DNA from: Geodermatophilus marinus
GTDB taxonomy: Bacteria; Actinomycetota; Actinomycetes; Mycobacteriales; Geodermatophilaceae
Length of the DNA stretch: 64,000 nt
Direction of reading: 5' to 3'
NCBI RefSeq assembly: GCF_003428645.1
Contig: NZ_QVQH01000001.1
Location: 310,001 to 374,000 of the forward strand
Made by a program: the position numbers and the translations under genes. The notes beneath the pieces are model-generated. The model did no database searches, had not been told where the DNA came from, and was given only the letters and a program-made list of their open reading frames with translations. Shown piece by piece: positions 4,321 through 63,960 of the stretch (positions are counted from its first letter, which is position 1; every line of letters starts with the position of its first letter).

Positions 4321-5205
4321 GTGACCGACCCCCGCGAGCCCTTCGACACCGACAGCGCCGTCGAGGCCACCGACCTCGACGACGCCCGCTTCGACCTCCG
4401 CGGCTCCGCCGACGTGGAGACCGGCGTCGGCGAGGCCGGGGCCGCCGAGGGCTCCACGGAGACCGCCGACCAGGACGCCGACACCGGGGTCGCCGACGTC
4501 GCCCCCGAGGTGGAGGCCGGCGACCCGGACAGCCTGGCCACCGACCCGCTGGCCGCGCCGGCCCCCGCCTCCGACCTGCCGGAGCCGGCCGAGGACGAGG
4601 ACCCGGTCGAGGAGCTGCGCAAGGCCCTGCGGATCGCGCCCGGCGACTGGTACGTCGTCCACTCCTACGCGGGCTACGAGAACAAGGTGAAGACCAACCT
4701 CGAGTCCCGCATCCAGTCCCTGGACATGGAGGACTACATCTTCCAGATCGAGGTGCCCACCGAGGAGGTCACCGAGATCAAGAACGGCAAGCGGACGCAG
4801 GTCAACCGGAAGGTCTTCCCCGGCTACCTGCTGGTGCGCATGGAGCTCAACGACGAGTCGTGGGGCGCGGTGCGCAACACACCGGGCGTCACCGGCTTCG
4901 TGGGCGCCACCTCCCGGCCCTCCCCGCTGACCCTCGACGAGGTCGTGAAGATCCTCGCGCCGACCGTCACCCCGCAGGTGACCAAGGCGGCAGAGACCAC
5001 CACGGCGGCCGCCGCCGCGCCGACCACCGCCGTGGTCGACTTCGAGGTCGGCGAGTCGGTGACCGTGATGGACGGGCCCTTCGCGACCCTGCCGGCCACC
5101 ATCAACGAGATCAACGCCGAGCAGCAGAAGCTCCAGGTGCTGGTCTCCATCTTCGGCCGGGAGACGCCGGTCGAGCTGTCGTTCAACCAGGTGCAGAAGC
5201 TGTAG
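4321..5205 (+). CDS. nusG: Transcription termination/antitermination factor NusG
   Basis: A 294-residue NusG. Residues 1-100 form an acidic low-complexity tail typical of actinobacterial NusG. The NGN domain that binds the RNA polymerase clamp starts at [12 protein letters not shown] (109-120) and runs to about 215, including [10 protein letters not shown] linker rich in Thr and Ala (221-237) leads to the C-terminal KOW domain ([15 protein letters not shown] to the end), which contacts Rho or S10. The GTG start has a strong GAGGAAGAG site. The TAG stop forms the first bases of a dispersed palindromic element. Confidence 0.96.
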
Positions 5206-5269
5206 AAGGGCCTCGGTGCCCCCAGTCCTCGCTCCGCTCGGCCCGGGGCCCTGCACCGAGGCCGTTCCA
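5203..5269 (+). repeat. Dispersed 3'-end palindrome, copy after nusG
   Basis: The element begins with the nusG stop (TAGAAGGGCC). The outer stem GGCCTCGGTGC (5209-5219) pairs exactly with GCACCGAGGCC (5253-5263), and the interior carries CCTCGCTCCGCTCGG. It ends with the common tail GCCGTTCCA. It can fold in nusG-rplK mRNA. Confidence 0.85.
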
Positions 5270-5291
5270 CCACCCCATCGAGAAGGAAGTC

Positions 5292-5723
5292 ATGCCCCCC
5301 AGGAAGCGGTTGACCGCGGTCATCAAGCTCCAGATCAACGCCGGTGCGGCCACCCCCGCCCCGCCCGTGGGTCCGGCGCTCGGCCAGCACGGCGTCAACA
5401 TCATGGAGTTCTGCAAGGCCTACAACGCCGCCACGGAGTCGCAGCGCGGCAACGTGATCCCGGTCGAGATCTCGGTCTTCGAGGACCGCTCGTTCACCTT
5501 CGTCACCAAGACCCCGCCGGCGGCCCGCATGCTGCTCAAGGCGGCCGGGGTGGAGAAGGGGTCCGGCGAGCCGCACAAGACCAAGGTCGCCACCGTGACC
5601 CGCGACCAGGTCCGCGAGATCGCGCAGACCAAGATGGCCGACCTCAACGCCAACTCGCTCGAGCAGGCCGAGAAGATCATCGAGGGCACCGCCCGCTCGA
5701 TGGGCATCACCGTCACCCAGTAG
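5292..5723 (+). CDS. rplK: 50S ribosomal protein L11
   Basis: A 143-residue L11 of normal length. The N-terminal domain ([19 protein letters not shown], with its thiostrepton-facing proline-rich loop [10 protein letters not shown]) and the rRNA-binding C-terminal domain ([14 protein letters not shown] ... [20 protein letters not shown]) are both present. L11 forms the GTPase-associated centre with 23S rRNA helix 43/44 and is the target of thiopeptide antibiotics. The ATG start follows GAAGGAAG. The stop is TAG, next to another palindromic element that separates it from rplA. Confidence 0.97.
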
Positions 5724-5790
5724 GAGAGGACCCCGCTGCCCCCCGGGTCTCGCACGCCCGGCCCGGGACCCCGCAGCGGGGCCGTTCGTG
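5721..5790 (+). repeat. Dispersed 3'-end palindrome, copy after rplK
   Basis: The rplK stop TAG is followed by GAGAGGACCCCGCTGC. The left arm (5728-5739) pairs with GCAGCGGGGCC (5773-5783). The inner part has CCCGGGTCTCGC and GGCCCGGG arms. The tail reads GCCGTTCG. Confidence 0.85.
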
Positions 5791-5857
5791 GGAGGGCCTC
5801 TCGCCAGGCCCGGTCACCACAGGACTCCCGGCCCGGCGCCGGGGGAGAGGAACCACC

Positions 5858-6577
5858 ATGGCGAAGCACGGCAAGAAGTTCCGCGAGGCGGCCGCCAAGG
5901 TCGACCGCGAGAACCTGTACACCCCGCTGCAGGCCGCCGGCCTGGCCAAGCAGACGTCGCCGACCAGCTACGACGCCACCGTCGAGGTCGCGATGCGCCT
6001 GGGCGTCGACCCGCGCAAGGCCGACCAGATGGTCCGCGGCACGGTCAACCTGCCGCACGGCACCGGCAAGACCGCCCGCGTCATCGTCTTCGCGACCGGT
6101 GACAAGGCCGCCGAGGCCGAGGCCGCCGGTGCCGACGTCGTGGGCTCCGACGACCTCATCGAGCGCATCCAGGGCGGCTTCCTGGACTTCGACGCAGCGA
6201 TCGCGACGCCGGACCAGATGGCCAAGGTCGGCCGGATCGCCCGCATCCTCGGTCCCCGCGGCCTGATGCCGAACCCGAAGACCGGCACCGTGACCCCCGA
6301 CGTCACCAAGGCGGTCAACGACATCAAGGGCGGGAAGATCAACTTCCGCGTCGACAAGCAGGCCAACCTGCACCTGGTGATCGGCAAGACCTCGTTCGAC
6401 GAGACCCGGCTCGTGGAGAACTACGCCGCCGCCCTCGACGAGGTCCTGCGCGCCAAGCCGGCCGCGGCCAAGGGGCGGTACCTGAAGAAGGTCACCATCT
6501 CCACGACGATGGGCCCGGGCATCCCGGTCGACCCGAACCGCACCCGCAACCTGACGGTGGACGAGCCGACCTCCTGA
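5858..6577 (+). CDS. rplA: 50S ribosomal protein L1
   Basis: A 239-residue L1, the usual bacterial length. The hallmark [21 protein letters not shown] motif and the second half of domain I ([25 protein letters not shown]) are intact. L1 forms the mobile stalk that escorts E-site tRNA, and in many bacteria it represses its own rplKA mRNA. The ATG at 5858 follows GGGGGAGAGGAA. A perfect 19-bp inverted repeat follows the gene and separates it from the rplJ promoter. Confidence 0.97.
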
Positions 6578-6595
6578 GCTCCGCTCCTCCCACGG

Positions 6596-6652
6596 CGATC
6601 ATGGCGCCGTGACCGCTCGGTCCCCGGGGCCGTGGTCACGGCGCCATGATCG
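6596..6652 (+). terminator. Long inverted repeat ending the secE-rplA unit
   Basis: Perfect 19-bp arms at 6596-6614 (CGATCATGGCGCCGTGACC) and 6634-6652 are separated by 19 nt. There is no clear U-tract; TCTTCGGG follows. The GATCATGG end resembles the hairpin at 16150-16190. Confidence 0.75.
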
Positions 6653-6653
6653 T

Positions 6654-6681
6654 CTTCGGGGTCGTGCGCGGCGTGTATGCT
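6654..6681 (+). promoter_or_regulatory. Promoter of rplJL
   Basis: A good -10 TATGCT at 6676-6681 with a weak -35 (TTCGGG at 6654-6659, spacer 16), placed just after the rplA terminator and about 220 nt before rplJ. Confidence 0.5.
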
Positions 6682-6683
6682 GG

Positions 6684-6907
6684 CTGCCGTTCCCCCCAAG
6701 ACCGCTGGTCGCCGCACGTCCGCGTGCGGTCGAAGGCCCCGCTCCGGCGGGCGGCCCGCGCAGGAGGACGGTCCGATCGGCGGCGCCCACCCGCGCCCGC
6801 CCCTCGCCCCGTGCGCCCTGCGCCGGGGCGTTCGTCGTCTGCAGGCCCTCCCGACCGCCCGCCCCGCGCACCGGCCGGCGGTCCGCCCGACAGACGAGAG
6901 GAGGCCC
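6684..6907 (+). promoter_or_regulatory. rplJ 5' leader, probable L10-type autoregulatory RNA
   Basis: The 220-nt untranslated leader of rplJ contains CCCCCAAGACCGCTGGTC near its 5' end, a segment characteristic of actinobacterial L10 leaders, and several GC-rich complementary stretches. In other bacteria the L10-(L7/L12) complex binds a kink-turn in this leader and represses rplJL. No full covariance check was possible here. Confidence 0.6.
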
Positions 6908-7486
6908 ATGCCCACGCAGGCGAAGGCCGCGGTGATCGACGAGATCACCGAGCGGTTCCAGTCGTCCAGCGCGGCGGTGCTCACCGAGTACCGCGGGCTG
7001 ACCGTGGCGCAGCTGACCCAGCTGCGCCGTTCCCTCGGTGAGGGCAGCAGCTACGCCGTCGTCAAGAACACCCTGACGAAGCGTGCCGCGGAGCAGGTGG
7101 GCTTCGCCGACCTCGCGCCGCTGCTCAACGGCCCGACCGCGATCGCCTTCATCGAGGGCGACCCGGTCGACGCGGCCAAGGCGCTCCGTGACTTCGCGCG
7201 CGCCAACCCGCTGCTCGTCGTCAAGGGCGGCGTGGTCGAGGGCCGCACGGTCGACGCCGCCGAGGTCACCCGCCTCGCCGACGTCGAGAGCCGTGACGTG
7301 CTCCTGGCCAAGCTCGCCGGCGCCATGAAGGGCAACCTCACCAAGGCCGCGGGTCTGTTCCAGGCCCCGGTCGCGCAGGTCGCCCGCCTCGCCGCCGCCC
7401 TGCAGGAGAAGAAGTCCGCGGACGCTCCTGCCGCTGCTGCCGACACCACCCCCGACACCGACGCCGCCCCCGCCGCGGCCGACTGA
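6908..7486 (+). CDS. rplJ: 50S ribosomal protein L10
   Basis: A 192-residue L10. The N-terminal RNA-binding domain is clear ([33 protein letters not shown]), followed by the helix that anchors L7/L12 dimers ([20 protein letters not shown] ... [13 protein letters not shown]). The last 25 residues are an Ala/Asp/Thr tail. It forms the base of the stalk that recruits translation factors. The ATG follows GAGAGGAGG. It lies 17 nt upstream of rplL and is co-transcribed with it. Confidence 0.96.
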
Positions 7487-7503
7487 CCCCAGAAGGAGAG
7501 ATC

Positions 7504-7902
7504 ATGGCCAAGCTGTCCAACGACGAGCTGCTCGACGCGTTCAAGGAGATGACCCTCCTCGAGCTGTCGGACTTCGTGAAGCTGTTCGAGGAGACCTTCG
7601 ACGTCACCGCGGCCGCCCCGGTCGCCGTCGCCGCGGCCCCGGCCGCCGGTGGTGCCGGTGGCGACGGTGGCGCCGCCGCCGCCGAGGAGCAGGACGAGTT
7701 CGACGTCATCCTCGAGAACGCCGGTGACAAGAAGATCCAGGTCATCAAGGAGGTGCGCGGCCTGACCTCGCTCGGCCTCAAGGAGGCCAAGGACCTGGTC
7801 GACGGCGCGCCGAAGCCGGTCCTGGAGAAGGTCGCCAAGGACGCCGCGGAGAAGGCCAAGGCCGCCCTCGAGGGCGCCGGCGCCACCGTCACCGTCAAGT
7901 GA
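7504..7902 (+). CDS. rplL: 50S ribosomal protein L7/L12
   Basis: A 132-residue L7/L12. The N-terminal dimerisation helix pair ([27 protein letters not shown] has its conserved core here) is followed by an Ala/Gly hinge (residues 38-60) and the C-terminal factor-binding domain ([20 protein letters not shown] to VTVK). It contacts EF-Tu, EF-G and IF2. AGAAGGAGAG is an excellent ribosome binding site, consistent with the need for several copies per ribosome. Confidence 0.97.
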
Positions 7903-7943
7903 GGGACCCCGCTGCCCTCGGGCCGCCTGCAGGGTCCCACCAC
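7903..7943 (+). repeat. Degenerate dispersed palindrome after rplL
   Basis: Directly after the TGA stop, GGGACCCCGCTGC is followed by GCCTGCAGGGTCCC, so the two arms remain but the middle has shrunk to about 10 nt. The start GGACCCCGCTGC matches the left arm of the copies after rplK and rpoA. Confidence 0.6.
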
Positions 7944-7994
7944 GAGCGTGCGAGTGGTGGGGGGCAGGGGGTCCTCCGGGAGCGGGGCCTCAGG

Positions 7995-8075
7995 GGCGGC
8001 ACCTGAGCCGTTCCAGGAGCGGCACGCAGGTCGTTCCAGGTGCGGCCGGGCCGCTCCAGCACGTCACCTCGCGGC
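7995..8075 (+). repeat. Repeated tail modules upstream of rpoB
   Basis: Three copies of the palindrome tail are seen without the rest of the element: GCCGTTCCAGGAGCGG, GTCGTTCCAGGTGCGG and GCCGCTCCAGCACGTCACC. They recall the tails after map, rpsM and rpsD. Confidence 0.5.
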
Positions 8076-8090
8076 GCTCCGCCGCACGCA

Positions 8091-8120
8091 GGGGCCGTCT
8101 CCCGATCGGGAGACGGCCCC
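8091..8120 (+). terminator. Terminator hairpin of the rplJL unit
   Basis: A perfect 30-nt palindrome: GGGGCCGTCTCCCGA (8091-8105) pairs with TCGGGAGACGGCCCC (8106-8120), followed by TGTCGCGTCT. It ends rplJL transcription or limits it before the rpoB promoter. Confidence 0.8.
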
Positions 8121-8266
8121 TGTCGCGTCTCCACAACCGCGGCGTGGCGGTCCCGCCGACGCGGCCCGGCTGGCATCATGGGTCCGCGCCGCGCGGCGGC
8201 GTGCCGAACCGGCCCCGCCGGCCGGCTGCCCTCCCGGGTGCGGTCCCCTCGTGCGGACCCCCGGCG

Positions 8267-8295
8267 TGGACAGCCCGCTGAGAACGGGGTAGGGT
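8267..8295 (+). promoter_or_regulatory. rpoB promoter
   Basis: TGGACA (8267-8272), a 17-nt spacer and TAGGGT (8290-8295), close to the actinobacterial housekeeping sigma consensus. About 200 nt of leader follow, starting with TTCCCTGTTGCGCTGCCCC. A GTTGCGCTGC segment also occurs in rpoB leaders of other actinobacteria as I recall them. Confidence 0.75.
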
Positions 8296-8495
8296 TCCCT
8301 GTTGCGCTGCCCCCTGACTGCATGCCCGCCGAGACGGGTCACCTGGGGTGCCCGGGGGACCGCTCCCGGACGCCCCGCGGAGACCGCCCGGACGGGCAGT
8401 TCAGCAGACCGGTCGGCAGTGCCGCCACTACCGACGACGACCCAGGACGACCCCGCACCCGCCCGCACGTCGTGAGGTCCTTGGAAGGACGCATC

Positions 8496-12005
<3,510 letters not shown>

Positions 12006-12010
12006 TCGGC

Positions 12011-12046
12011 CGCCGGCCGGTCCGTCGGGCGACGGACCGGCCGGCG
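12011..12046 (+). other. Strong hairpin between rpoB and rpoC
   Basis: A perfect 17-bp inverted repeat: CGCCGGCCGGTCCGTCG (12011-12027) pairs with 12030-12046. It starts 6 nt after the rpoB stop. rpoC lacks a clear separate promoter, so this is more likely an mRNA processing, stabilising or attenuating structure than a full terminator. Confidence 0.7.
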
Positions 12047-12102
12047 TCCCCAGCCAAACGACTAGAAGTGCAGTAACGAGCCCCGGGAAAGGGGTCCACT
12101 CA

Positions 12103-16008
<3,906 letters not shown>

Positions 16009-16076
16009 GAAAGGACCCTCGTCAGGGTCCCGCGCCTCGCACGCCCGGCGCGGGACCCTGACGAGGGCCGCTCCAG
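16009..16076 (+). repeat. Dispersed 3'-end palindrome, copy after rpoC
   Basis: Three nt after the TGA stop, AAGGACCCTC opens a near-perfect 23-bp hairpin: 16014-16036 pairs with 16047-16069 with a 10-nt CTCGCACG-type loop. The tail is GCCGCTCCAGCGGGTCACC. It is the most symmetric copy in the window. Confidence 0.85.
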
Positions 16077-16085
16077 CGGGTCACC

Positions 16086-16118: not shown

Positions 16119-16149
16119 TCCGCGTTTCACGGCGTGACGAAACCCGCCG

Positions 16150-16190: not shown

Positions 16191-16196
16191 GAGAGG

Positions 16197-17549: not shown

Positions 17550-17587
17550 GGCGACCATGGTGCCCTGTCGAGCGGCCGGAGGACAGT

Positions 17588-18848
17588 AGAAGGACCCCCT
17601 CGCCCCCCACGCCTCGCTGCGCTCGCCGCGGGCCCCTGCGAGGGGGCCGTCCCTCCTGCTCGCCCCCCACGCCTCGCTGCGCTCGCCGCGGGCCCCTGCG
17701 AGGGGGCCGTCCCTCCTGCTCGCCCCCCACGCCTCGCTGCGCTCGCCGCGGGCCCCTGCGAGGGGGCCGTCCCTCCTGCTCGCCCCCCACGCCTCGCTGC
17801 GCTCGCCGCGGGCCCCTGCGAGGGGGCCGTCCCTCCTGCTCGCCCCCCACGCCTCGCTGCGCTCGCCGCGGGCCCCTGCGAGGGGGCCGTCCCTCCTGCT
17901 CGCCCCCCACGCCTCGCTGCGCTCGCCGCGGGCCCCTGCGAGGGGGCCGCCCCTCCTGCTCGCCCCGCACGCCTCGCTGCGCTCGCCGCGGGCCCCTGCG
18001 AGGGGGCCGCCCCTCCTGCTCGCCCCGCACGCCTCGCTGCGCTCGCCGCGGGCCCCTGCGAGGGGGCCGCCCCTCCTGCTCGCCCCGCACGCCTCGCTGC
18101 GCTCGCCGCGGGCCCCTGCGAGGGGGCCGCCCCTCCTGCTCGCCCCGCACGCCTCGCTGCGCTCGCCGCGGGCCCCTGCGAGGGGGCCGCCCCTCCTGCT
18201 CGCCCCGCACGCCTCGCTGCGCTCGCCGCGGGCCCCTGCGCGGGGGCCGCCCCTCCTGCTCGCCCCGCACGCCTCGCTGCGCTCGCCGCGGGCCCCTGCG
18301 AGGGGGCCGCCCCTCCTGCTCGCCCCGCACGCCTCGCTGCGCTCGCCGCGGGCCCCTGCGCGGGGGCCGCCCCTCCTGCTCGCCCCGCACGCCTCGCTGC
18401 GCTCGCCGCGGGCCCCTGCGAGGGGGCCGCCCCTCCTGCTCGCCCCGCACGCCTCGCTGCGCTCGCCGCGGGCCCCTGCGCGGGGGCCGCCCCTCCTGCT
18501 CGCCCCGCACGCCTCGCTGCGCTCGCCGCGGGCCCCTGCGAGGGGGCCGCCCCTCCTGCTCGCCCCGCACGCCTCGCTGCGCTCGCCGCGGGCCCCTGCG
18601 CGGGGGCCGCCCCTCCTGCTCGCCCCGCACGCCTCGCTGCGCTCGCCGCGGGCCCCTGCGAGGGGGCCGCCCCTCCTGCTCGCCCCGCACGCCTCGCTGC
18701 GCTCGCCGCGGGCCCCTGCGCGGGGGCCGCCCCTCCTGCTCGCCCCGCACGCCTCGCTGCGCTCGCCGCGGGCCCCTGCGCGGGGGCCGCCCCTCCTGCT
18801 CGCCCCGCACGCCTCGCTGCGCTCGCCGCGGGCCCCTGCGCGGGGCTG
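17588..18848. repeat. 21-copy tandem array of a 60-bp palindromic unit
   Basis: Twenty-one cores with an exact 60-bp period occupy about 1.26 kb. The first copy (17588-17654) is a whole dispersed element: AGAAGGACCCCCTCG, then CGCCTCGCTGCGCTCG, then CGAGGGGGCCGTCC. In later units the left end is replaced by the junction CCGTCCCTCCTGCTCG. Units differ at only three places: cores 1-6 read CGCCCCCCAC and 7-21 CGCCCCGCAC; the junction changes from CCGTCC to CCGCCC at the same point; and the base starting each GGGGGCC run is A or C. That last base alternates A,C from 18181 to 18721 and then is C three times. The array fills the space between the peptidase stop and the small orphan gene. Confidence 0.97.
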
Positions 18849-32162: not shown

Positions 32163-32348
32163 ATGGCCAAGAAGGCGCTGATCAACAAGGCGGCCCGCAA
32201 GCCGAAGTTCGCCGTCCGCGGCTACACGCGGTGCCAGCGGTGCGGCCGCCCGCACTCGGTCTTCCGGAAGTTCGGCCTCTGCCGGATCTGCCTCCGGGAG
32301 ATGGCGCACGCCGGTGAGCTGCCGGGCGTGAGCAAGAGCTCCTGGTAG
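32163..32348 (+). CDS. rpsN: 30S ribosomal protein S14, zinc-binding type Z
   Basis: A 61-residue S14 of the short type. Two CxxC pairs, CQRCGR and CRICLR, form the zinc ribbon, so this is the zinc-dependent form. Sequence opens [20 protein letters not shown]. The ATG follows CGAGGAGAGACAG. The stop TAG opens a palindromic element that separates it from rpsH. Confidence 0.97.
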
Positions 32349-32436
32349 CAGGACCCCGACCTCCCCACCCTTCGCAGGCTCAGGGTGGGACCCGGGACGG
32401 GGCCCGACGGCGGCCCCGCAGCCGGGCCGCTCCATC
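32346..32436 (+). repeat. Dispersed 3'-end palindrome, copy after rpsN
   Basis: The rpsN stop TAG is followed by CAGGACCCCGACCTCC. Inner arms CCCACCC and GGGTGGG enclose TTCGCAGGCTCA. The right side is longer than usual: GGGACGGGGCC, then a second GGCCCCGCAGCCGGGCCG block, and the tail GCCGCTCCA. Confidence 0.75.
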
Positions 32437-35207: not shown

Positions 35208-35352
35208 CGAAGGACCCACTGCCCCATCGTGGAAGGCCCTCCCTGCCCTCCGTCGACGGACGCCGTCCACCCCAGCCCCGGCACGCCCGGGGCGGGGTGC
35301 GCGGCGGCGTCGCGGCGGGGCCCGGTAGGAGGGCCGCCCGCGGTGGGACCCC
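35208..35352 (+). repeat. Nested pair of dispersed palindromes after rplO
   Basis: An outer element starts AAGGACCCACTGCCCC (35210-35225) and closes with GCGGTGGGACCCC (35340-35352). Inside lies a second one starting GGAAGGCCCTCCCTGCCC (35231) and ending GGTAGGAGGGCCGCC (35324-35338). Its core CACCCCAGCCCCGG / CCGGGGCGGGGTG forms a hairpin. The arrangement looks like one copy inserted into another. Confidence 0.65.
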
Positions 35353-35364
35353 GCAGAGGGGTCT

Positions 35365-35409
35365 GACCCCCGGGGCGCATCTCCGCGCGAGATGACCGCC
35401 CCGGGGGTC
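35365..35409 (+). terminator. Terminator of the rplN-rplO unit
   Basis: GACCCCCGGGGCG (35365-35377) pairs perfectly with CGCCCCGGGGGTC (35397-35409). An inner stem CATCTC/GAGATG (35378-35383 and 35389-35394) extends it. Confidence 0.8.
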
Positions 35410-35539
35410 GTCTGCTCCCGGGCCCGGCGCCTCCCACCGCGCCGGCCGGGTCTCCCCCTGCGGGCCCCACCGCGAGTGGCGGGGCGCAGGGGGGCTCCGT
35501 CCCGTTGATAACCTCATCCGACCGACCAGGGGAGGGCAC

Positions 35540-37529: not shown

Positions 37530-38333
37530 ATGATCCAGATCAAGACACCGCACGAGCTGGAGCTCATGCGCGGGGCGGGCCTGGTGGTGGCCGGTGCGAT
37601 CGCGGCGGTCCGCGCCGCCATCCGCCCCGGCGTGACCACCGGCGAGCTGGACGCCATCGCCGAGGACCACATCCGCACCGCCGGCGCCGTCCCCTCGTTC
37701 CTCGGCTACCACGGCTTCACCGGCAGCATCTGCGCCTCGATCAACGACGAGATCGTGCACGGCATCCCGCGGCCGGACCGGGTGCTCGCCCAGGGCGACA
37801 ACATCTCGATCGACTGCGGTGCGATCCTGCACGGCTGGCACGGCGACTCCGCCGTCACCGTCACCGTGGGGGAGCCCTCTACCGAGGACGCCGCCCTCAT
37901 GGACGTCACCGAGCGGTCGATGTGGGCCGGCCTGGCCCGGGCCGTCGCCGGCGGGCGGCTGACCGACATCAGCCACGCCGTCGAGGAGGTCGTCGTGGCC
38001 GAGCGGCACCCCTACGGGATCGTCGACCACTACGGCGGGCACGGCATCGGCACCGAGATGCACCAGGACCCGCACGTGCTGAACTACGGCCGCCCGGGTC
38101 GGGGCCCGCGCCTGGTCCCCGGCCTCGCCCTGGCGATCGAGCCGATGGTGACCGTGGGGGACCCGGCCACCGAGGAGCTCGACGACGGCTGGACCGTCGT
38201 GACCAAGGACGGGTCGCGTGCGGCCCACTTCGAGCACACCGTCGCCGTCACCCCGGAGGGGCCGTGGGTCCTCACGGCCGAGGACGGCGGCGTCGCGGGG
38301 CTGGCGCCCTTCGGGATCACGCCCCGCACCTAG
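37530..38333 (+). CDS. map: Methionine aminopeptidase, type I
   Basis: A 267-residue metalloprotease that removes initiator methionine. Metal ligands are D95 and D106 ([14 protein letters not shown]), H in [11 protein letters not shown] in AIEPMV and E in [11 protein letters not shown] 37530 begins the conserved [17 protein letters not shown]; an in-frame ATG at 37473 would add 19 residues. Stop TAG opens a palindromic element. Confidence 0.95.
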
Positions 38334-38396
38334 GAGGACCTCGCTACCCCCACCGCTCGCAGGCTCGCGGCGGGACCCTGCAGCGAGGCCGTTCCA
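38331..38396 (+). repeat. Dispersed 3'-end palindrome, copy after map
   Basis: The map stop TAG is followed by GAGGACCTCGCTACCCCC. CCGCTCGCAGGCTCGCGGCGG forms the inner hairpin and GCAGCGAGGCC the right arm. The tail is GCCGTTCCAGTCGGTCACC. Confidence 0.85.
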
Positions 38397-39456: not shown

Positions 39457-39580
39457 GAGGACCCCGCTTCCCCCCACGCCTCGCACGCTCGGCGTGGGCC
39501 CCTGAAGCGGGGCCGACTCCGGCACTGCGCCGGGGCCGTTCCAGGCCCTCACCCGGGCCGTTCCACCCCCTCACCAGGCC
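39457..39580 (+). repeat. Dispersed 3'-end palindrome with extra tails, after rpsM
   Basis: GAGGACCCCGCTTCCCCCC opens the element. The inner hairpin CCCACGCC/GGCGTGGG encloses TCGCACGCTC, and GAAGCGGGGCC (39504-39514) is the right arm. Two further tails follow, GGGGCCGTTCCAGGCCCTCA and GGGCCGTTCCACCCCCTCAC. Confidence 0.8.
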
Positions 39581-40671: not shown

Positions 40672-40673
40672 GT

Positions 40674-40741
40674 AGAAGGACCCCCTCGCTCCCCACCACG
40701 CGCTCCGCGCGCGGCGGGTCCCGGCGAGGGGGCCGTTCCAT
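40674..40741 (+). repeat. Dispersed 3'-end palindrome, copy after rpsD
   Basis: TAGAAGGACCCCCTCG begins 2 nt after the TAA stop, so here the TAG is not the stop. The inner part is CCACCACGCGCTCCGCGCG. The right arm CGAGGGGGCC and tail GCCGTTCCATCGCGTCACCA follow. Arms are the same as in the first unit of the tandem array. Confidence 0.85.
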
Positions 40742-40843: not shown

Positions 40844-41920
40844 ATGCTCATCGCACAGCGCCCCACGCTGACCGAGGAGACCATCTCCGAGCACCGCTCG
40901 CGGTTCGTCATCGAGCCCCTCGAGCCCGGCTTCGGCTACACGCTCGGCAACTCGCTGCGGCGCACGCTGCTGTCGTCCATCCCCGGTGCGGCGGTCACCA
41001 GCATCCGCATCGAGGGCACCCTGCACGAGTTCACCACCGTGCCGGGCGTCAAGGAGGACGTCACCGAGATCATCCTCAACCTCAAGGGCCTGGTCGTCAG
41101 CTCCGACTCCGACGAGCCGGTGACCATGTACCTGCGCAAGCAGGGCCCCGGCGAGGTGACCGCCGCGGACATCGCCCCGCCGGCCGGTGTCGAGGTGCAC
41201 AACCCCGACCTGCACATCGCGACCCTCAACGCGAAGGGCCGCCTGGAGATCGAGCTGGTCGTCGAGCGGGGCCGCGGCTACGTGCCGGCGCCGCAGAACA
41301 AGCAGCCCGGTCAGGAGATCGGCCGCATCCCGGTCGACTCGATCTACTCGCCGGTCCTCAAGGTCACCTACGCCGTCGAGGCCACCCGTGTCGAGCAGCG
41401 CACCGACTTCGACCGCCTGGTCGTCGACGTCGAGACCAAGCCCTCGATCGCCCCGCGCGACGCCATCGCCTCCGCCGGCTCGACCCTGGTCGAGCTGTTC
41501 GGCCTGCTGCGCGAGCTGAACGTGGACGCCGAGGGCATCGAGGTCGGGCCCAGCCCGGCCGAGGCGGCGGACATCGCCAACTTCTCGATGCCGATCGAGG
41601 ACATGGACCTCACCGTCCGGTCCTACAACTGCCTCAAGCGCGAGGGCGTGCACACCGTCGGCGAGCTGGTCACCCGCTCCGAGGCCGACCTGCTCGACAT
41701 CCGCAACTTCGGCGCCAAGTCGATCGACGAGGTCAAGATGAAGCTGGCGGCGATGGGCCTCGCGCTCAAGGACAGCCCGCCCGGGTTCATCCCGACCTCG
41801 GTCGAGAGCTACGACGAGGGCTACGAGACCGACGCCTACCACGGTGCCGCCGAGTACGGCGGCCAGTACGGCGGGGGCGAGTACGGCGAGGCCTCCTACC
41901 AGGAGACCGAGCAGCTCTAG
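40844..41920 (+). CDS. rpoA: DNA-directed RNA polymerase subunit alpha
   Basis: A 358-residue alpha subunit. The N-terminal assembly domain has [31 protein letters not shown]-type sequence. After a flexible linker, the C-terminal domain has [20 protein letters not shown] and [19 protein letters not shown], which bind UP elements and activators. The last 45 residues are acidic and Tyr/Gly-rich, longer than in E. coli. ATG after GAGGAGAACACC. The stop TAG opens a palindrome. Confidence 0.97.
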
Positions 41921-41982
41921 AAGGACCCCGCTGCCCCCCACCGCTCGCAGGCTCGCGGCGGGACCCTGCAGCGGGGCCGACT
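41918..41982 (+). repeat. Dispersed 3'-end palindrome, copy after rpoA
   Basis: A close-to-consensus copy. TAGAAGGACCCCGCTGC begins with the rpoA stop codon. CCGCTCGCAGGCTCGCGGCGG is the inner hairpin and GCAGCGGGGCC (41968-41978) the right arm. The tail is shortened (GCCGACTGTCC). Confidence 0.88.
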
Positions 41983-42152
41983 GTCCGGGGTTGGATGGCG
42001 GGGAGACCCGCCGTCCGGCACCGTCGTCCGGACAGCCACACTGGGGGCCGCGGCACGACCGGCACCCGCGCTCGACGGATGACCACCCCCGCACGACTGC
42101 TTGCACGATGCAGCCCGGCGCCCACCGCCCGGCCGCCCGAGGAAGGACCGAC

Positions 42153-51774: not shown

Positions 51775-53628
<1,854 letters not shown>

Positions 53629-53631
<3 letters not shown>

Positions 53632-53697
53632 AAGGACCCCGCCGATGATCAGGTGAGCTGGTCATCGGGGGTCCTGGCTCACCACCGGTGCTGAGCC
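53629..53697 (+). repeat. Variant dispersed palindrome after glmS
   Basis: TAGAAGGACCCC starts with the glmS stop. AGGACCCC (53633-53640) pairs with GGGGTCCT (53668-53675), and CCGATGA (53642-53648) with TCATCGG (53662-53668). The centre is different from the other copies and contains ATGATCA. A second small hairpin GGCTCA/TGAGCC follows (53676-53697). Confidence 0.7.
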
Positions 53698-53781
53698 AGG
53701 ACCTGCAACGGTGAGCCAGGACGCCGGCCCGGCGCGTCACCAGGCTGCGCGGGCGGGACGGCGGCACGGCAGACTGGCGGC

Positions 53782-55589: not shown

Positions 55590-55617
55590 TCCCGGCGGGC
55601 CTGGGAGGATCGACCCC

Positions 55618-57947: not shown

Positions 57948-57979
57948 CGTCCGCGCGGTACCGGTCCGGTGCCCGCCGT

Positions 57980-57985
57980 TAGGGT
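57980..57985 (+). promoter_or_regulatory. -10 box of the uracil-DNA glycosylase gene, leaderless arrangement
   Basis: TAGGGT ends 6 nt before the GTG at 57992. No binding site lies between. Confidence 0.5.
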
Positions 57986-57991
57986 GCCTGC

Positions 57992-58621: not shown

Positions 58622-59070
58622 GGCGGGAGCACCTGCTGCCCACGGTGGAGGACACCCGGGCCCTGGGCGCCGCGCTGGCCGAGCTGGTGCGGGCCGGCGA
58701 CCTGGTCGTGCTGGCCGGGCCGCTCGGCGCGGGCAAGACCGCCCTCACCCAGGGCCTCGGTGCCGCGCTGGGCGTGGGGGAGCCGGTGACCTCGCCGACC
58801 TTCGTCATCGCCCGGGTGCACCGGGGCGGCCGGCTGCCGCTGGTGCACGTGGACGCCTACCGGCTCGGCGGGGCGGCCGACGTCGACGACCTCGACCTCG
58901 ACGCGTCCGCGGAGGAGTCGGTGACCGTCGTCGAGTGGGGCCGGGGACTGGTCGAGCAGCTCGCCGACGAGCACCTGGAGGTGCGGCTGGACCGCCGGGA
59001 GGACGACGTCCGGACCGCGCTGCTCGTCCCGCACGGCCCCGGGTGGGAGCGGCGCCTGGCCGGCGTCTGA
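58618..59070 (+). CDS. tsaE: tRNA t6A biosynthesis ATPase TsaE
   Basis: A 150-residue P-loop protein. The Walker A is GPLGAGKT (34-41), TSPTFVIARVH and HVDAYRLGG follow, and VTVVEWGRGL is typical of the family. It works with TsaB and TsaD in threonylcarbamoyl transfer to A37. Coupled to the glycosylase gene by GTGA. Its usual neighbour tsaB is displaced 740 bp by a toxin-antitoxin pair. Confidence 0.94.
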   Translation: MRREHLLPTVEDTRALGAALAELVRAGDLVVLAGPLGAGKTALTQGLGAALGVGEPVTSPTFVIARVHRGGRLPLVHVDAYRLGGAADVDDLDLDASAEESVTVVEWGRGLVEQLADEHLEVRLDRREDDVRTALLVPHGPGWERRLAGV

Positions 59071-59077
59071 CCCCGCG

Positions 59078-59509
59078 TCAGGCGCCGCCCGGTCCCAGGG
59101 CCGTGAGCAGCTCGACGTCCCGGTGGCCGGCCAGGGCGGCGAGCCCCGCGTCGAAGGTGACCACCCGGACCCCGCGCCGGCGGGCCAGCGCCAGCAGGTG
59201 CGCATCGGTCACCTGGCGGTGCCCTGCGGTGGCGGGGACGTCCGGGTCGACCATCGAGACGTCGTCCACGAGGAACCGGTGAGCGCCGATGCGGCGCAGG
59301 CGGGCGAGGACCTCCCGTGCGGCGGCGGCACCGATCGGGCTGGGCAGGACCGCCCGGTTGGAGGAGACGCGGACGAACCCGCTCTCGGTGACCGGGCAGG
59401 TGGCCCACCCGGTCCGGCCGGCGACCGAGAACCACGTCCGGATCGCGGCGTGGTGCACGTGCGAGTCCCACGCCAGGGCCACGAGGGCGTTGACGTCGAG
59501 CAGGGCCAC
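59078..59509 (-). CDS. vapC: PIN-domain ribonuclease, VapC-like toxin
   Basis: A 143-residue PIN protein. The acidic site is D5 (LLDVNALVALA), E42 (VTESGF), D102 (QVTDAHLLALA) and D120 (VVTFDAG). VapC toxins cleave tRNA or rRNA. GTG start 6 nt after the antitoxin stop, normal for a type II pair. The stop is 7 nt from the tsaE stop, so the two genes are convergent. Confidence 0.88.
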   Translation of the reverse strand: MALLDVNALVALAWDSHVHHAAIRTWFSVAGRTGWATCPVTESGFVRVSSNRAVLPSPIGAAAAREVLARLRRIGAHRFLVDDVSMVDPDVPATAGHRQVTDAHLLALARRRGVRVVTFDAGLAALAGHRDVELLTALGPGGA

Positions 59510-59515
59510 CTGCGG

Positions 59516-59755
59516 TCAGGCCTCGTCGAGGGCCCGGGCGACCATCGACGGCGTGATGGGCGGGGTGCCGCTCGGGACGCGGATGACCGGGAGCGCGCCG
59601 TCGCTCTCCACCCGGGCCGGGGTCAGCCCGCGGCGGGCGAGCTCCGAGACGACCGAGCCGATCGAGCGGCGCTCGCTCGCGGCCAGTTCGCGGGCGGCGG
59701 CGAGCACGTCGTCGTCCAGGTCGAGCGTCGTCCGCACGGCCTGATGATACCGCAT
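59516..59755 (-). CDS. vapB: Ribbon-helix-helix antitoxin, VapB-like
   Basis: A 79-residue protein. VRTTLDLDDDVLAAARELAA is the ribbon-helix-helix DNA-binding domain, and the C-terminal 30 residues (LPVIRVPSGTPPITPSMVAR) would wrap the toxin. ATG 59755, or GTG 59737. The product probably represses its own promoter, which must lie in the 58 bp shared with tsaB. Confidence 0.85.
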   Translation of the reverse strand: MRYHQAVRTTLDLDDDVLAAARELAASERRSIGSVVSELARRGLTPARVESDGALPVIRVPSGTPPITPSMVARALDEA

Positions 59756-59799
59756 CACGGCATCACCGCCGTACCCGTGGGCGCCCGGCGTCCCCGCAC

Positions 59800-59805
59800 T
59801 ACCCT
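59800..59805 (+). promoter_or_regulatory. -10 box of tsaB, leaderless arrangement
   Basis: TACCCT ends 8 nt before the GTG at 59814. The promoter overlaps the region upstream of the divergent vapB gene. Confidence 0.5.
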
Positions 59806-59813
59806 GGTCGGTC

Positions 59814-60449
59814 GTGCTCGTCCTCGCCCTCGACACCGCCACCCCGACCCTGGTCGCAGGGGTCGCCCGCTGGGCCGACGGGCGGGCCGACGTCCTCGCC
59901 GAGCACGCCCTGCCGTCGGGCACCCGGCACGCCGAGCTGCTCACCGGCGCCGTCACCGGGGTGCTCGCCGAGGCCGGGCTCCGCGTCGCCGACCTCGGGG
60001 CGGTCGTCACCGGCCTGGGGCCGGGGCCGTTCACCGGGCTGCGGGTCGGGGTCGTCACCGCCGCGGCGATCGGCGACGCGCGCGGGCTGCCGGTCGTCGG
60101 CGTCTGCTCGCTGGACGCCGTGGGCGCCGGCGCCCGCGCCGTGGTCACCGACGCCCGCCGCAAGGAGGTCTACTGGGCCGTCTACGGCGGCGACGGCGGG
60201 CGGCTCGACGGGCCGGGGGTCGCGCGGCCCGAGGAGCTCACCGTCCCCCGTCCGGTGGTGGGGGACCCGCGCTTCGCCGACCGGCTGGGCGTCGACGTCA
60301 CCCCGGCCGACGTGACCACCGCCGGGCTGCTGCGCGCCGCCGGCCCGCAGCTGGCCGACCCGTCGTCCGCCGGCCCGCTGGTGCCGCTCTACCTGCGCCG
60401 GCCGGACGCCGTCCCGCCCGCCTCCTACAAGCCGGTGACGTCGGCGTGA
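59814..60449 (+). CDS. tsaB: tRNA t6A biosynthesis protein TsaB
   Basis: A 211-residue ASKHA-fold protein. LVLALDTATPTLVAGVARWA and GLGPGPFTGLRVGVVTAAAI identify it. It dimerises with TsaD and is required for t6A37. GTG 59814; the stop overlaps rimI by 4 bp. Confidence 0.94.
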   Translation: MLVLALDTATPTLVAGVARWADGRADVLAEHALPSGTRHAELLTGAVTGVLAEAGLRVADLGAVVTGLGPGPFTGLRVGVVTAAAIGDARGLPVVGVCSLDAVGAGARAVVTDARRKEVYWAVYGGDGGRLDGPGVARPEELTVPRPVVGDPRFADRLGVDVTPADVTTAGLLRAAGPQLADPSSAGPLVPLYLRRPDAVPPASYKPVTSA

Positions 60450-60898
60450 GCACCCGGCTGCGGCCGATGCGGCTGGCCGACCTCGACGCCGTCCTCGCGC
60501 TGGAGGAGGAGCTGTTCGCCCCCGACACCTGGACGCGGGCGATGTACCGGGACGAGCTCTCCCGCACCGACACGCGCCACTACCTGGTGGCCGAGGACGG
60601 CGACCGGGTCGTGGGCTACGCCGGCTTGATCGCCTACGACGACGAGGCGCACGTGGCCACCATCGGGGTGACGACCGGCCGCCAGGGCGAGGGCATCGGC
60701 GCGCGGCTGCTCGACGCGCTGCTGGTCGAGGCCGACCGGCGCAGCCCGGTCGTGCTGCTGGAGGTGCGCGCCGACAACGGGACGGCGCAGGCGCTCTACC
60801 GGAGGCGGGGGTTCGTCGAGGTCGGCCGGCGCCCGCGCTACTACCAGCCGAGCGGCACGGACGCCGTCGTGATGAAGAGGGAGCGGGCAGGGGCGTGA
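60446..60898 (+). CDS. rimI: Ribosomal protein S18-alanine N-acetyltransferase-like
   Basis: A 150-residue GNAT acetyltransferase. RPMRLADLDAVLALEEELFA opens the fold. IGVTTGRQGEGIGARLLDAL binds acetyl-CoA, and LEVRADNGTAQALYRRRGFV and GRRPRYYQPSGTDAVVM follow. GTGA overlap with tsaB. Its last codons and stop lie in the first copy of a 77-bp repeat. Confidence 0.92.
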   Translation: MSTRLRPMRLADLDAVLALEEELFAPDTWTRAMYRDELSRTDTRHYLVAEDGDRVVGYAGLIAYDDEAHVATIGVTTGRQGEGIGARLLDALLVEADRRSPVVLLEVRADNGTAQALYRRRGFVEVGRRPRYYQPSGTDAVVMKRERAGA

Positions 60899-61052
60899 GC
60901 ATCGCAGCGAGGGACGAGCGAGGAGCGGAGCGCTCCGCGGGAGCGACCGGGGACAGGGAGCGGGCAGGGGCGTGAGCATCGCAGCGAGGGACGAGCGAGG
61001 AGCGGAGAGCTCCGCGGGAGCGACCGGGGACAGGGAGCGGGCAGGGGCGTGA
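60878..61052 (+). repeat. 77-bp tandem repeat across the rimI-tsaD junction
   Basis: Two units of 77 bp start at 60878 and 60955, and a partial third at 61032. Each begins AGGGAGCGGGCAGGGGCGTGA. The rest contains GAGCATCGCAGCGAGGGACG and the palindrome GCGGAGCGCTCCGC; the second copy differs there by one base (GAGAGC). The first TGA ends rimI and the last GTG starts tsaD. Confidence 0.95.
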
Positions 61053-62086
61053 CCGACGAACCGCTGGTGCTGGGATTCGAGACCTCGTGCGACGAGACCG
61101 GCGTGGGGCTGGTGCGCGGGCACACGCTGCTGTCCGACGCGCTGGCCACGTCGGTGGCCGAGCACGAGCGCTTCGGCGGGGTGGTGCCGGAGATCGCCTC
61201 GCGGGCGCACCTGGAGGCGATGGTGCCGACGGTGCACCGGGCGCTGGCCGAGGCCGGCGTCCGGGCCGCTGACGTCGACGCGGTCGCGGTGACGGCCGGG
61301 CCCGGGCTGACCGGCGCGCTGCTGGTCGGGCTGGCCGCCGCCAAGGCGTACGCGCTGGCCCTCGACAAGCCGCTGTACGGCGTCAACCACCTGGCCGCGC
61401 ACGTCGCGGTCGACGAGCTGCAGCACGGCCGGCTCGCGGAGCCGTCGCTGGCGCTGCTGGTCTCCGGCGGGCACAGCTCGCTGCTGCTGGTGCCCGACCT
61501 CTCCCAGGAGGTGCGCTCGCTCGGCCGCACGATCGACGACGCGGCGGGGGAGGCCTTCGACAAGGTCGCCCGCGTGCTCGGCCTGCCGTTCCCGGGCGGC
61601 CCGCCGATCGACCGGGCCGCGCGCGAGGGCGACCCGGCGGCGATCGACTTCCCGCGCGGGCTCACCGGCCCCCGCGACGCCCCCTACGACTTCTCCTTCT
61701 CGGGCCTGAAGACCGCCGTCGCCCGCTGGGTCGAGGCCCGGCAGCGGGCCGGCGAGCCGGTGCCGGTGGCCGACGTCGCGGCGTCCTTCCAGGAGGCGGT
61801 CGCCGACGTGCTGACGGCCAAGGCGGTGCGGGCCTGCCGGGACCACGGCGTGGACCACCTGGTGCTCGGCGGCGGGGTGGCGGCCAACTCCCGGCTGCGG
61901 GCGCTGGCCGAGCAGCGGTGCGCCGCGGCCGGCATCGTGCTGCGGGTGCCCAGCCCCCGGCTGTGCACCGACAACGGTGCGATGGTGGCGGCCCTGGGCT
62001 CGCGGCTGGTCGCGGCGGGGGTGGCGCCGTCCGCGCCGGACGTCGGCGCCGACAGCTCGCTGCCGATCGACGTCGTCACCCGCTGA
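61049..62086 (+). CDS. tsaD: tRNA N6-adenosine threonylcarbamoyltransferase
   Basis: A 345-residue ASKHA protein. The metal site is H114 and H118 (NHLAAH). [17 protein letters not shown] and [15 protein letters not shown] bind nucleotide, and [17 protein letters not shown] and the final [13 protein letters not shown] are family motifs. It transfers the threonylcarbamoyl group to A37. GTG 61049 lies in the repeat, which also provides GGGCAGGGG as binding site. Confidence 0.96.
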
Positions 62087-62089
62087 CGG

Positions 62090-62126
62090 GAGTGGATCCG
62101 TCGGTGTCACCTCGACGGATCCACTC
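62090..62126. terminator. Bidirectional hairpin between tsaD and the methyltransferase
   Basis: GAGTGGATCCGTCG (62090-62103) pairs perfectly with 62113-62126 around a 9-nt loop. The right arm lies inside the last codons of the opposing gene, whose stop is in the loop. Confidence 0.8.
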
Positions 62127-63321
62127 CGCAGACGAGGGCGGTGGGCCGGCCGGCGACCCGGGTGACCACGACGGTCGCCGAGCCGTCGCCCGGCCCGCGC
62201 AGCTGCCGGGCGAGCTGCTCGGGCTCGATCGCCGAGCCGCGCTTCTTCACGACGACCCGGCCGACGCCGCGGGCCCGCAGCAGCGCCCGCAGCCGCTTGA
62301 GGTGGAACGGCAGCACCGCGTCGACCCGGTAGGAGGCCACCCACGGGGAGGCGGCGGGCGCGTCGGAGGTGAGGTAGGCGATCGTCGGGTCGACCAGCGT
62401 CGCGCCGAGGTCGGCGGCGACGAGCGCGACCAGCCCGGAGCGGATCACCGCCGGGTCGGGCTCGTGCAGCCACGTGCCCACGGGCCCGGTGGGTGCGGAG
62501 CCGGGGTCCTCGTCCGCGGTCAGTTCCAGCACCGCGTCCCCGTGCACCAGGGACGCCCGGCGCCAGGCCGTCGACACCCCGCGCCCCCACAGCAGCGCCT
62601 CCACGACCGTGCCGCCGGCCGACACCCACTCCGCCTCGACGCCCTCGGGCACCCGCGCGTGGTCCAGGCCGGGCGCGACCTTCACCACCGCCCGCGGCAC
62701 CCCGTCGAGCAGCGCGGCCACCGTCGGCCAGGGCGGCGACCAGCGGTCGGGGTCGAGCCGGCGCCGGCCGCCGGCGCGCCGGGCCGGGTCCAGCACGGCG
62801 GCGCGGCAGCCGGCGACCGTCCCGCCCTCGGCGGCGGCGACCAGGTCGACGACGTCGGCATCCACCACGGTGACGCGGTCGGCCAGGCCGAGGGCCGCGG
62901 CGTTCGCGGCGGTCAGCTCCCGGGCGACGGGGTCCCGGTCCACCGCCACCACCGCCGCGCCGGCCCGGGCGAGGGCGATCGCGTCGGTGCCCGAGGCGCA
63001 CCCGAGGTCGGCGGCGTCCGAGCCGGCCACGCGCAGCCGCGCGGCCCGGCGGGCGGCCAGCGCCGGCCGGCCGGCCTGCTCGAGGGTGTCGGCGGTCAGC
63101 AGCAGGACGTCGGCGTCCGCGCCGAACACCGGCCGGGCGCGGGCCCGCAGCCGGGCGAGCTCCCACGCCGGCCCGGCCAGCTCGGCACCCACCTCGGCGC
63201 GCAGCCGGGTCAGGCCGGCCAGCACCTCGGCGCCCCCGGCGAGGAGGTCGGCGGCCCGGGCGGTGGCCCGTTGCCCGGCGGGGGTGCGCAGCGCGCGCAG
63301 CCTGGTGAGGTCGTCGGGCAC
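62107..63321 (-). CDS. Class I SAM-dependent methyltransferase with THUMP-like domain
   Basis: A 404-residue protein. Residues 90-210 are a Rossmann methyltransferase domain: ADLGCASGTDAIALARAGAA binds S-adenosylmethionine and [15 protein letters not shown] stands where a DPPY-type motif occurs. The C-terminal region has VDAVLPFHLKRLRALLRARG and VGRVVVKKRGSAIEPEQL, resembling the THUMP-like domain of actinobacterial members. The substrate is probably RNA, but this is inference. GTG 63321 is used. It is divergent from groES. Confidence 0.8.
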   Translation of the reverse strand: MPDDLTRLRALRTPAGQRATARAADLLAGGAEVLAGLTRLRAEVGAELAGPAWELARLRARARPVFGADADVLLLTADTLEQAGRPALAARRAARLRVAGSDAADLGCASGTDAIALARAGAAVVAVDRDPVARELTAANAAALGLADRVTVVDADVVDLVAAAEGGTVAGCRAAVLDPARRAGGRRRLDPDRWSPPWPTVAALLDGVPRAVVKVAPGLDHARVPEGVEAEWVSAGGTVVEALLWGRGVSTAWRRASLVHGDAVLELTADEDPGSAPTGPVGTWLHEPDPAVIRSGLVALVAADLGATLVDPTIAYLTSDAPAASPWVASYRVDAVLPFHLKRLRALLRARGVGRVVVKKRGSAIEPEQLARQLRGPGDGSATVVVTRVAGRPTALVCGVDPSR

Positions 63322-63369
63322 GCCGCCAGCGTGGCGCACGGCCGGTGCTCCCCCGGGTCGGGGGGCCCG

Positions 63370-63404
63370 GTTGAGTGGCTGGCACTCTCCTGGGTAGAGT
63401 GCCA
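63370..63404 (+). promoter_or_regulatory. groES promoter overlapped by a CIRCE operator
   Basis: CTGGCACTC (63378-63386), a 9-nt spacer and GAGTGCCAA (63396-63404) form the inverted repeat bound by the heat-shock repressor HrcA. TTGAGT (63370-63375) and TAGAGT (63394-63399) with 18 nt between them make the promoter that it would block. Arms differ from each other at one base pair. Confidence 0.88.
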
Positions 63405-63511
63405 ACCGACACGGGCAGGTGCCTGACCCCCGCGACGGCAGGCCCGGCCTTCGTGCCACAGCATCAGCTCCACCTACCCAGCCGTCCGAGCCAGAAGGGG
63501 GCGTCACCGAC

Positions 63512-63820
63512 GTGACGACCGCTACCAAGGTCACCATCAAGCCGCTGGAGGACCGCGTCGTGGTCCAGGCCAACGAGGCCGAGACCACCACCGCCTCGGG
63601 TCTGGTCATCCCCGACACCGCCAAGGAGAAGCCGCAGGAGGGCACGGTCGTGGCCGTGGGCCCCGGCCGCGTCGACGACAACGGCAACCGCGTCCCGCTC
63701 GACGTCAAGGTCGGCGACGTCGTCATCTACTCCAAGTACGGCGGCACCGAGGTCAAGTACGCCGGCGAGGAGTACCTGGTGCTCTCCGCCCGCGACCTGC
63801 TCGCCGTCGTCGAGAAGTAA
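63512..63820 (+). CDS. groES: Co-chaperonin GroES (Cpn10)
   Basis: A 102-residue Gro[22 protein letters not shown] opens it, [20 protein letters not shown] contains the mobile loop that binds GroEL, and [20 protein letters not shown] and DLLAVVEK close it. GTG 63512 gives the usual N-terminus, with AGAAGGGGG ten nt before. Stop TAA. groEL, if adjacent, lies beyond the window. Confidence 0.95.
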
Positions 63821-63960
63821 GGGGACCCCGTCGCCCCCACCGCTCGCGAGCTCGCGGCGGGGCCCTGCGACGGGGCCGGTTCCAGCACCCTGCGACGGGG
63901 CCGGTTCCAGCACCCTGCGACGGGGCCGATCCCGGCCCTCACAGGGGTCGTTCCAGCACC
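63821..63960 (+). repeat. Dispersed palindrome after groES with a 25-bp tandem tail
   Basis: GGGGACCCCGTCGCCCCCAC opens after the TAA. CCGCTCGCGAGCTCGCGGCGG forms the inner hairpin. The right arm and tail TGCGACGGGGCCGGTTCCAG then recur at 63866, 63891 and 63916 with a 25-bp period. A last GTCGTTCCAGCACC follows. Confidence 0.85.

Follow-up and report, generated by a model that had tools for sequence, protein, structure and literature searches.

A nested palindrome behind stop codons in Geodermatophilus marinus, probably a REP-type hairpin repeat of the Geodermatophilaceae

The DNA analysed here, which we call the window, is a stretch of 64,000 nucleotides (nt) from Geodermatophilus marinus, whose genome is a draft of 5.23 Mb in 71 contigs; the window spans C1:310001-374000 and has a GC content of 73.7%. 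Its RpoA is 93-96% identical to that of eight Geodermatophilaceae records (L039-L046; Blastococcus, Geodermatophilus, Trujillonella and Goekera), and in a coding tree L220, from a genome of the same GTDB genus, groups as identical with L042, Geodermatophilus sp. TF02-6. Behind several housekeeping genes, among them nusG, rplK, rpoC, map, rpsM, rpsD, rpoA and groES, the window carries copies of a nested palindrome of about 60-70 nt. We suggest that this repeat, which is non-coding, is probably a dispersed DNA hairpin of the REP (repetitive extragenic palindrome) type, nearly confined to the Geodermatophilaceae and kept mainly at the 3' ends of genes. Elements of this kind are known, while this variant appears to be new in the open-access literature, where no description of the repeat in Geodermatophilaceae was found (most subscription journals lie outside that literature).

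The element and its copies in the window

A preliminary description, made from the letters alone, had named twelve places as members of the family. A covariance model, R1, assigns nine of them to the element, namely eight clean copies and a diverged one at rpsN; the other three, at glmS, rplO and rplL, had been misfiled and are treated at the end. R1 was built from the nine clean copies of the window, that is the eight at named places and one at 17592 that had not been listed, so that the R1 scores of these nine are high by construction; the rpsN copy, an antisense match at rplL and the genome matches lie outside the building set. Searching the window with R1, filters off, returned the nine building-set copies, rpsN, the antisense rplL copy and the units of a tandem array.

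The nine copies at named places all stand on the plus strand. In the building set are those of nusG (5203..5269; R1 65.3 bits at 5208-5268), where the foot TAGAAGG supplies the TAG stop; rplK (5721..5788; 72.5 bits at 5728-5788; TAG stop), where relatives have a native hairpin; rpoC (16009..16075; 57.7 bits at 16013-16074), in which the internal loop has become a perfect 21-bp arm; map (38331..38396; 77.0 bits at 38336-38395; TAG stop); rpsM (39457..39519; 81.6 bits at 39459-39519), where many relatives carry a native rpsM-rpsK hairpin; rpsD (40672..40740; 65.5 bits at 40678-40739), whose GGACC starts 6 nt past the TAA; rpoA (41918..41983; 78.9 bits at 41923-41983), with a TAG stop where most relatives have TGA and with the native hairpin retained behind the copy; and groES (63821..63884; 72.2 bits at 63823-63882). 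The diverged rpsN copy (32346..32410; TAG stop) reaches 50.3 bits at 32351-32410.

The nine clean copies measure 60-62 nt from GGACC to four bases past GGCCG. A purine-rich 5' foot, (T)AGAAGG, is followed by GGACC and by an outer stem of about 11 bp that contains one bulged A and has arms that vary between copies; then come a one-sided internal loop, longer on the 3' side (about ACCCT), and an 8-bp inner stem, in which an A.C mismatch is conserved (86 of 124 own copies, those of the host genome). The loop is conserved as TCGC..GCTC and the 3' foot is GGCCG, with a TTCC tail in a minority of copies. The word AGAAGGACCCC was counted 34 times and its reversal 7 times, one of the signs that the family exceeds chance.

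That the variable arms pair with their own partners, as the preliminary description had proposed, is borne out by covariation above shuffles: across the nine clean copies 92.2% of the cells are paired and 23 cells have changed on both sides, which none of 500 shuffles matches, although the test favours the structure, because this was drawn from the same nine sequences. Two weaker measures of the five gave 9 double-change pairs (reached by 12 of 500 shuffles) and 13 further pair types (reached by 95 of 500). Repair to perfect palindromes was considered as a general source of this covariation and rejected, as rpoC is the sole own copy of 152 with a perfect arm of at least 18 bp (21 bp); a second, partial case was seen by eye at map of the relative L208.

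The element also grows in tandem. The copy at 17587..17653 (plus strand; 67.0 bits at 17592-17653; foot TAGAAGG) has no recognised stop codon in front; it lies upstream of a putative small minus-strand frame (17558-17319, 79 codons), about 30 nt from where that frame starts. From this one copy has grown an array with a 60-bp unit, 20.8 units long (17599..18845, plus strand), found by Tandem Repeats Finder and a repeat search. Shorter repeats stand at two other copies: the groES copy runs into 25-bp tandem repeats of the element's 3' part (63863-63928), and at rpsM there are 22-bp tandem repeats of its 3' tail (39533-39575).

Copy number and taxonomic range

The host genome holds at least 142 R1 matches at E<=0.01, counted among 150 scored candidates, so that further copies, whose absence would have spoken for ordinary terminators, are abundant; the figure is a lower bound, because the rpsN copy, found in the window search, is absent from that list. 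The region of the window has 10 separate matches, where the genome average would predict about 1.7 (5 array units left out on both sides). This suggests a preference for highly expressed genes, and no more than suggests it, because the window was picked for its many copies.

Within the Geodermatophilaceae, R1 finds the element in 85 of 96 genomes, which belong to 9 of 12 genera and mostly have at least about 56 matches. Eleven genomes are without a match, nine of them fragmented and from genera g5, g8 and g10, the other two (G019 and G094) from genera that otherwise match, most of their members with tens of matches; six of the eleven are rated 90% complete or better, with contamination of 5% or less. 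One locus from a metagenome-assembled genome of the family (L047) also gave no match. Outside the family the element is almost absent. A class-level sample gave one weak match in 295 other genomes (under stricter filters, with few candidates scored per genome), and none of 71 rpoA loci of other actinobacteria matched. In an order sample 53 of 298 genomes matched, 50 of them in Geodermatophilaceae and three (G440, G447, G509) in two other families. These three are drafts with one or two copies each, at five places in all (L302-L306), where a TGA triplet in any frame stands 1-4 nt before the element in four cases and about 17 nt before it in the fifth; they may reflect transfer or contamination. 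Against Rfam, at gathering scores, the window gave three tRNAs only, and the element matches no curated model. Carriage by viruses or plasmids found no support in two narrow searches: neither one consensus pattern in viral contigs nor one rpoA copy in plasmids gave a match.

Placement at stop codons

Own copies were collected from genome stretches and the window, giving 152 distinct ones; leaving out ten outside 57-64 nt yields 142 full copies. A copy was counted as stop-adjacent when 0-6 nt separated its start from a stop codon in front, provided that the frame closed by this stop had at least 50 codons and a coding-like GC3 (GC content at third codon positions). By this rule 80 of the 142 start directly behind an in-frame stop, and the same 80 were obtained from 145 copies under a looser length limit. 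The stops are TGA in 47 cases, TAG in 23 and TAA in 10, and the commonest spacings are 4 nt (mostly TGA) and 2 nt (mostly TAG). Within the 8 nt that precede the model start, 33 of 142 copies have a TAG (CTAG 16, GTAG 15, ATAG 2). The frame filter is imperfect, since rpsN was rejected although its TAG is 2 nt away. Of the 62 copies outside this class, 38 are preceded within 60 nt by sequence that resembles the element; the remaining 24 are not, several of them looking nested by eye. A TAG at the foot occurs in 7 of the 62, and as the one at rpsN is a real stop, 6 are left. The loci of relatives were picked around housekeeping genes, and there 60 of 79 full copies stand 0-6 nt behind a stop. At L022 (1501-1561) a copy, judged by eye, may be translated as the C-terminal part of the gene in front of it.

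A GC-rich hairpin behind a stop codon resembles an intrinsic terminator, and one might propose that these are ordinary terminators that look alike through their composition, given GC-rich stems at gene ends in DNA of such high GC content. We consider this very improbable. The loop and feet are conserved, and R1 hardly matches beyond the family, as described above. In the 20 nt behind the stem the longest T run is 0-2 in all 142 copies, so there is no T-tract. Downstream of the 80 stop-adjacent copies a crude caller found 49 co-directional frames (36 starting within 100 nt), 25 convergent ones and 6 that it left uncalled. Many copies thus lie inside operons and are therefore not strict terminators, in agreement with the preliminary description, and a plain terminator was rejected on T-tracts, on the sites before co-directional genes and on the specificity of the model. 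Nested and antisense copies and the lineage-restricted sequence are further differences from intrinsic terminators.

Presence and absence in relatives

Comparison of orthologous sites had been proposed earlier as a check, and its outcome is divided: the sites in relatives are often empty or hold unrelated native hairpins, yet at nusG the element recurs. Sense copies no more than 12 nt from the stop occur in 8 of 29 rows at map, 7 at rpsM, 6 at rpsD and 8 at rpoA, and the minimum numbers of changes on the 29-row tree are 5, 5, 6 and 7, respectively. The tree holds 28 different rows (L042 and L220 being one genome) with 10 of 25 inner branches weak, and the change counts are inflated, because decayed or nested copies were scored absent. 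Of 25 relatives, 19 carry the element at nusG in sense orientation and one (L223) in antisense; of the five relatives without a match, two look empty by eye and three partial. Apparent deletion remnants were seen by eye at rpsD of L045 and rpoA of L208. Empty orthologous sites and sites with native hairpins are more in keeping with a mobile repeat than with an element fixed at 3' ends.

At rplK, 7 of 25 relatives carry sense copies and 4 antisense copies, and all eleven genes lack the final Gly codon, which 11 of the 14 genes without a copy keep; presence of a copy and loss of Gly are thus associated. Of note for annotation, altered stop codons accompany the element, as does, at rplK, a missing final residue.

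The arms themselves are diverse. Among the 142 own copies there are 70 arm types, the commonest at 12 places, and arm subfamilies recur at unrelated loci (ACCCCGTCCT, for example, at 12 places). At rpoA, GCTGC arms recur, and several sites without a copy also begin with GCTGC; this site may have been occupied early and emptied often, or occupied afresh several times. Twelve copy pairs are at least 95% identical, seven of them cluster neighbours and five at unrelated sites.

DNA fold or RNA fold

Covariation in repeats at the 3' ends of messenger RNAs (mRNAs) does not by itself show an RNA function. If the fold of the sense RNA were kept, pairs that depart from the majority should more often be G.U than A.C. 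Across 124 own copies, with the conserved-mismatch column excluded, the departures are 49 A.C and 23 G.U; another set of own copies (24 rows), which overlaps with this one, gave 9 and 3, and the 79 copies of relatives 30 and 12. RNase P RNA from 25 genomes of the genus, taken as a control, gave 38 G.U and 10 A.C. Folding with DNA parameters points the same way: in 123 of 142 copies the better fold is that of the complementary strand, in 16 that of the given strand. Both the wobble and the strand-folding results speak against selection on the sense RNA and are compatible with recognition of a DNA hairpin. The preliminary description had taken compensating changes in the arms as a sign that the fold is selected or that each copy was made as a unit; the covariation is real, and selection of the fold at the RNA level finds no support in the wobble test.

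The obvious rival is a functional RNA element at the mRNA 3' end, such as a partial terminator, a barrier to RNases or a cistron insulator, that is selected behind stop codons and whose turnover would be the exchange of one functional hairpin for another. The 80 stop-adjacent copies agree with it, as do the downstream genes, which in the 74 cases with a callable frame are co-directional about twice as often as convergent; native hairpins, too, start near stops and give way to the element at rpsM and often at rplK, and at nusG 20 of 26 genomes carry the element in sense orientation. The element nonetheless shows no wobble preference on its sense strand, carries a conserved A.C mismatch and lacks a T-tract; antisense, nested and tandem copies exist, and many orthologous sites have no copy at all. 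We therefore regard an RNA element as unlikely.

For the DNA repeat that we prefer, several observations weigh on the other side. The A.C excess in the own copies is partly due to one column, and with this second A.C-rich column excluded it falls to 29 against 22, near even; the RNase P control uses a structure predicted from the alignment of that RNA itself, where G.U is admitted, so that the control favours G.U; and the wobble counts, which were not corrected for strand bias of mutation, are not independent, because the copies share ancestry. The boundary at the stop codon is not sharp, with TGA copies mostly 4 nt and TAG copies mostly 2 nt behind it, and the tight spacing in sense orientation could itself reflect an RNA function. 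The sense copy at nusG in 20 of the 26 genomes of the genus, the host included, looks like retention, and three of the 14 copy-less rplK genes (L228, L236 and L246) also lack the Gly codon. Near-identical copies at unrelated sites are few, and two of those five pairs lie within composites with a second palindrome family (below). Finally, no target-site duplication was seen, and no RAYT, the REP-associated tyrosine transposase, was found: its family PF01797 has no match in the host genome and none in 57 family genomes including it.

Relation to known repeats and mode of spread

The suggestion in the preliminary description that the copies might be REP-like is upheld by their placement, their TAG stops and their complementary arms. 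REPs are described as high-copy palindromes, mostly extragenic and near the 3' ends of open reading frames; their TAG end often provides the stop codon, their arms have complementary alternatives, and they form clusters and dimers, some inside genes (PMC3733652). The Geodermatophilaceae element shares with GTAG and CGTC REPs the high-copy palindrome near 3' ends, the TAG stops, the complementary arm variants and the clusters. In E. coli, REPs need a conserved mismatch or bulge for recognition, which is strand-specific and acts on single strands (PMC8266576); the A.C mismatch of the present element is comparable.

There are differences as well. The element measures about 60-70 nt and is built of two stems, one nested in the other, and an internal loop, while a length of 20-40 nt is given for REPs (PMC3733652). 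GTAG occurs at the foot in 15 of 142 copies, where in most GTAG families the tag is conserved in more than 90% of members (CGTC was unscored); GT pairing is also reported as frequent in GTAG REPs, and it is not favoured here. RAYT, which the preliminary description had pointed to as the transposase to look for, is absent from the 57 genomes, with PF01797 matching 5 of 14 control genomes. RAYT was accordingly rejected as the engine of spread, this being the only transposase, recombinase or reverse transcriptase family searched for; CGTC REPs are also said to have no dedicated transposase (PMC3733652). Because the GTAG tag, the length and RAYT all fail to fit, we class the element as a REP-like variant and not as a REP member. 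Miniature inverted-repeat transposable elements (MITEs) are likewise short, non-coding, dispersed and bounded by inverted repeats; as tentative differences, rplK of L227 and L230, the clearest of few clean filled and empty pairs, shows by eye no target-site duplication, and no partner transposon was found (only the Y1 family having been searched for). Integron attC sites and the ends of IS200/IS605 elements, which IntI or TnpA cut as single-stranded hairpins, were compared as well; of their enzymes, the Y1 transposase family gave no match in the 57 genomes.

We infer that the spreading process recognises a DNA hairpin, perhaps one strand of it, and that any effect on mRNA is of secondary importance. 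Most likely the element spreads as such a hairpin, either through an activity supplied in trans or through template switching between hairpins, and its copies would survive mostly at gene ends, where they lie outside the reading frame or bring their own TAG.

A narrower form of this DNA hairpin reading dispenses with a transposase altogether: ectopic template switching or gene conversion would let one hairpin replace another. Several observations by eye point in this direction. At the filled rpsM sites of the window, L204, L207, L210 and L042 the native hairpin of many unfilled relatives is absent, as it is at several filled rplK sites. Between L227 and L230 the insertion at rplK went with the loss of about 7 nt and no duplication, and at rplK of L224 and L232 the arms do not pair and look like recombinants of the nusG and rplK types. 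That no RAYT was found fits as well.

Nesting gives a further hint. Nested copies were seen by eye at rpoA of L203, L204 and L205 and at rpsD of L042, and the element also meets a second palindrome family, GCGGAGTGGATCC..GGATCCACTCCGC (seen, for example, at L253, L259 and L261-L265). In the host genome, with up to one mismatch allowed, GCGGAGTGGATCC is matched 60 times and its reversed control 5 times, and 10 of 16 assembled palindromes of this family stand directly after a TGA triplet in any frame. Three of them (L264, L274 and, inverted, L255) hold the R1 element in their loop, and in all three composites the 5' half of the second-family loop has been replaced.

Such replacement could nevertheless have arisen by insertion and later deletion, and the event itself was not seen. 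Moreover, rplK of L227 keeps the native hairpin, the filled rpoA sites with their flank in view mostly keep the one downstream, and the state of rpsM in L045, where further GC-rich inverted repeats lie behind the copy, is ambiguous. Transposase-free swapping thus remains a tentative and rather doubtful sub-case of the DNA hairpin repeat. If it were true, it would explain the replacement, the lost target bases in place of a duplication, the recombinant arms, the nesting and compensating arms made at the DNA level and not through selection on RNA.

In either form, the element would be an actinobacterial counterpart of REPs, with no RAYT found, in a family whose many genomes allow filled and empty sites to be compared, and the spread of RAYT-less palindromic repeats thereby becomes testable.

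Other palindromes and repeats in the window

The three misfiled places are palindromic in their own ways. At rplL (7903..7992, without assigned strand) an outer palindrome, GGGACCCCGCT..AGCGGGGCC, encloses an antisense copy of the element (7915-7974, minus strand), which R1 scores at 56.7 bits, so that the copy once described as decayed is an antisense match inside another palindrome. The sites at rplO (35208..35347) and glmS (53629..53680), both on the plus strand, have the 5' foot GAAGGACC in common and a different palindrome inside, and neither is a member of the R1 family. At glmS the foot reads TAGAAGGACCCC and no R1 match was found at E<=1. At rplO the foot is element-like, the inner palindrome is nested, and the named place gave no R1 match; further on in the rplO-secY gap there are a sense match at chance level (35365-35414; 16.4 bits, E 0.93) and an antisense match (35448-35493; 22.0 bits, E 0.09). 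The window also contains a 77-bp tandem repeat of 2.3 units with 98% matches at 60878-61052.

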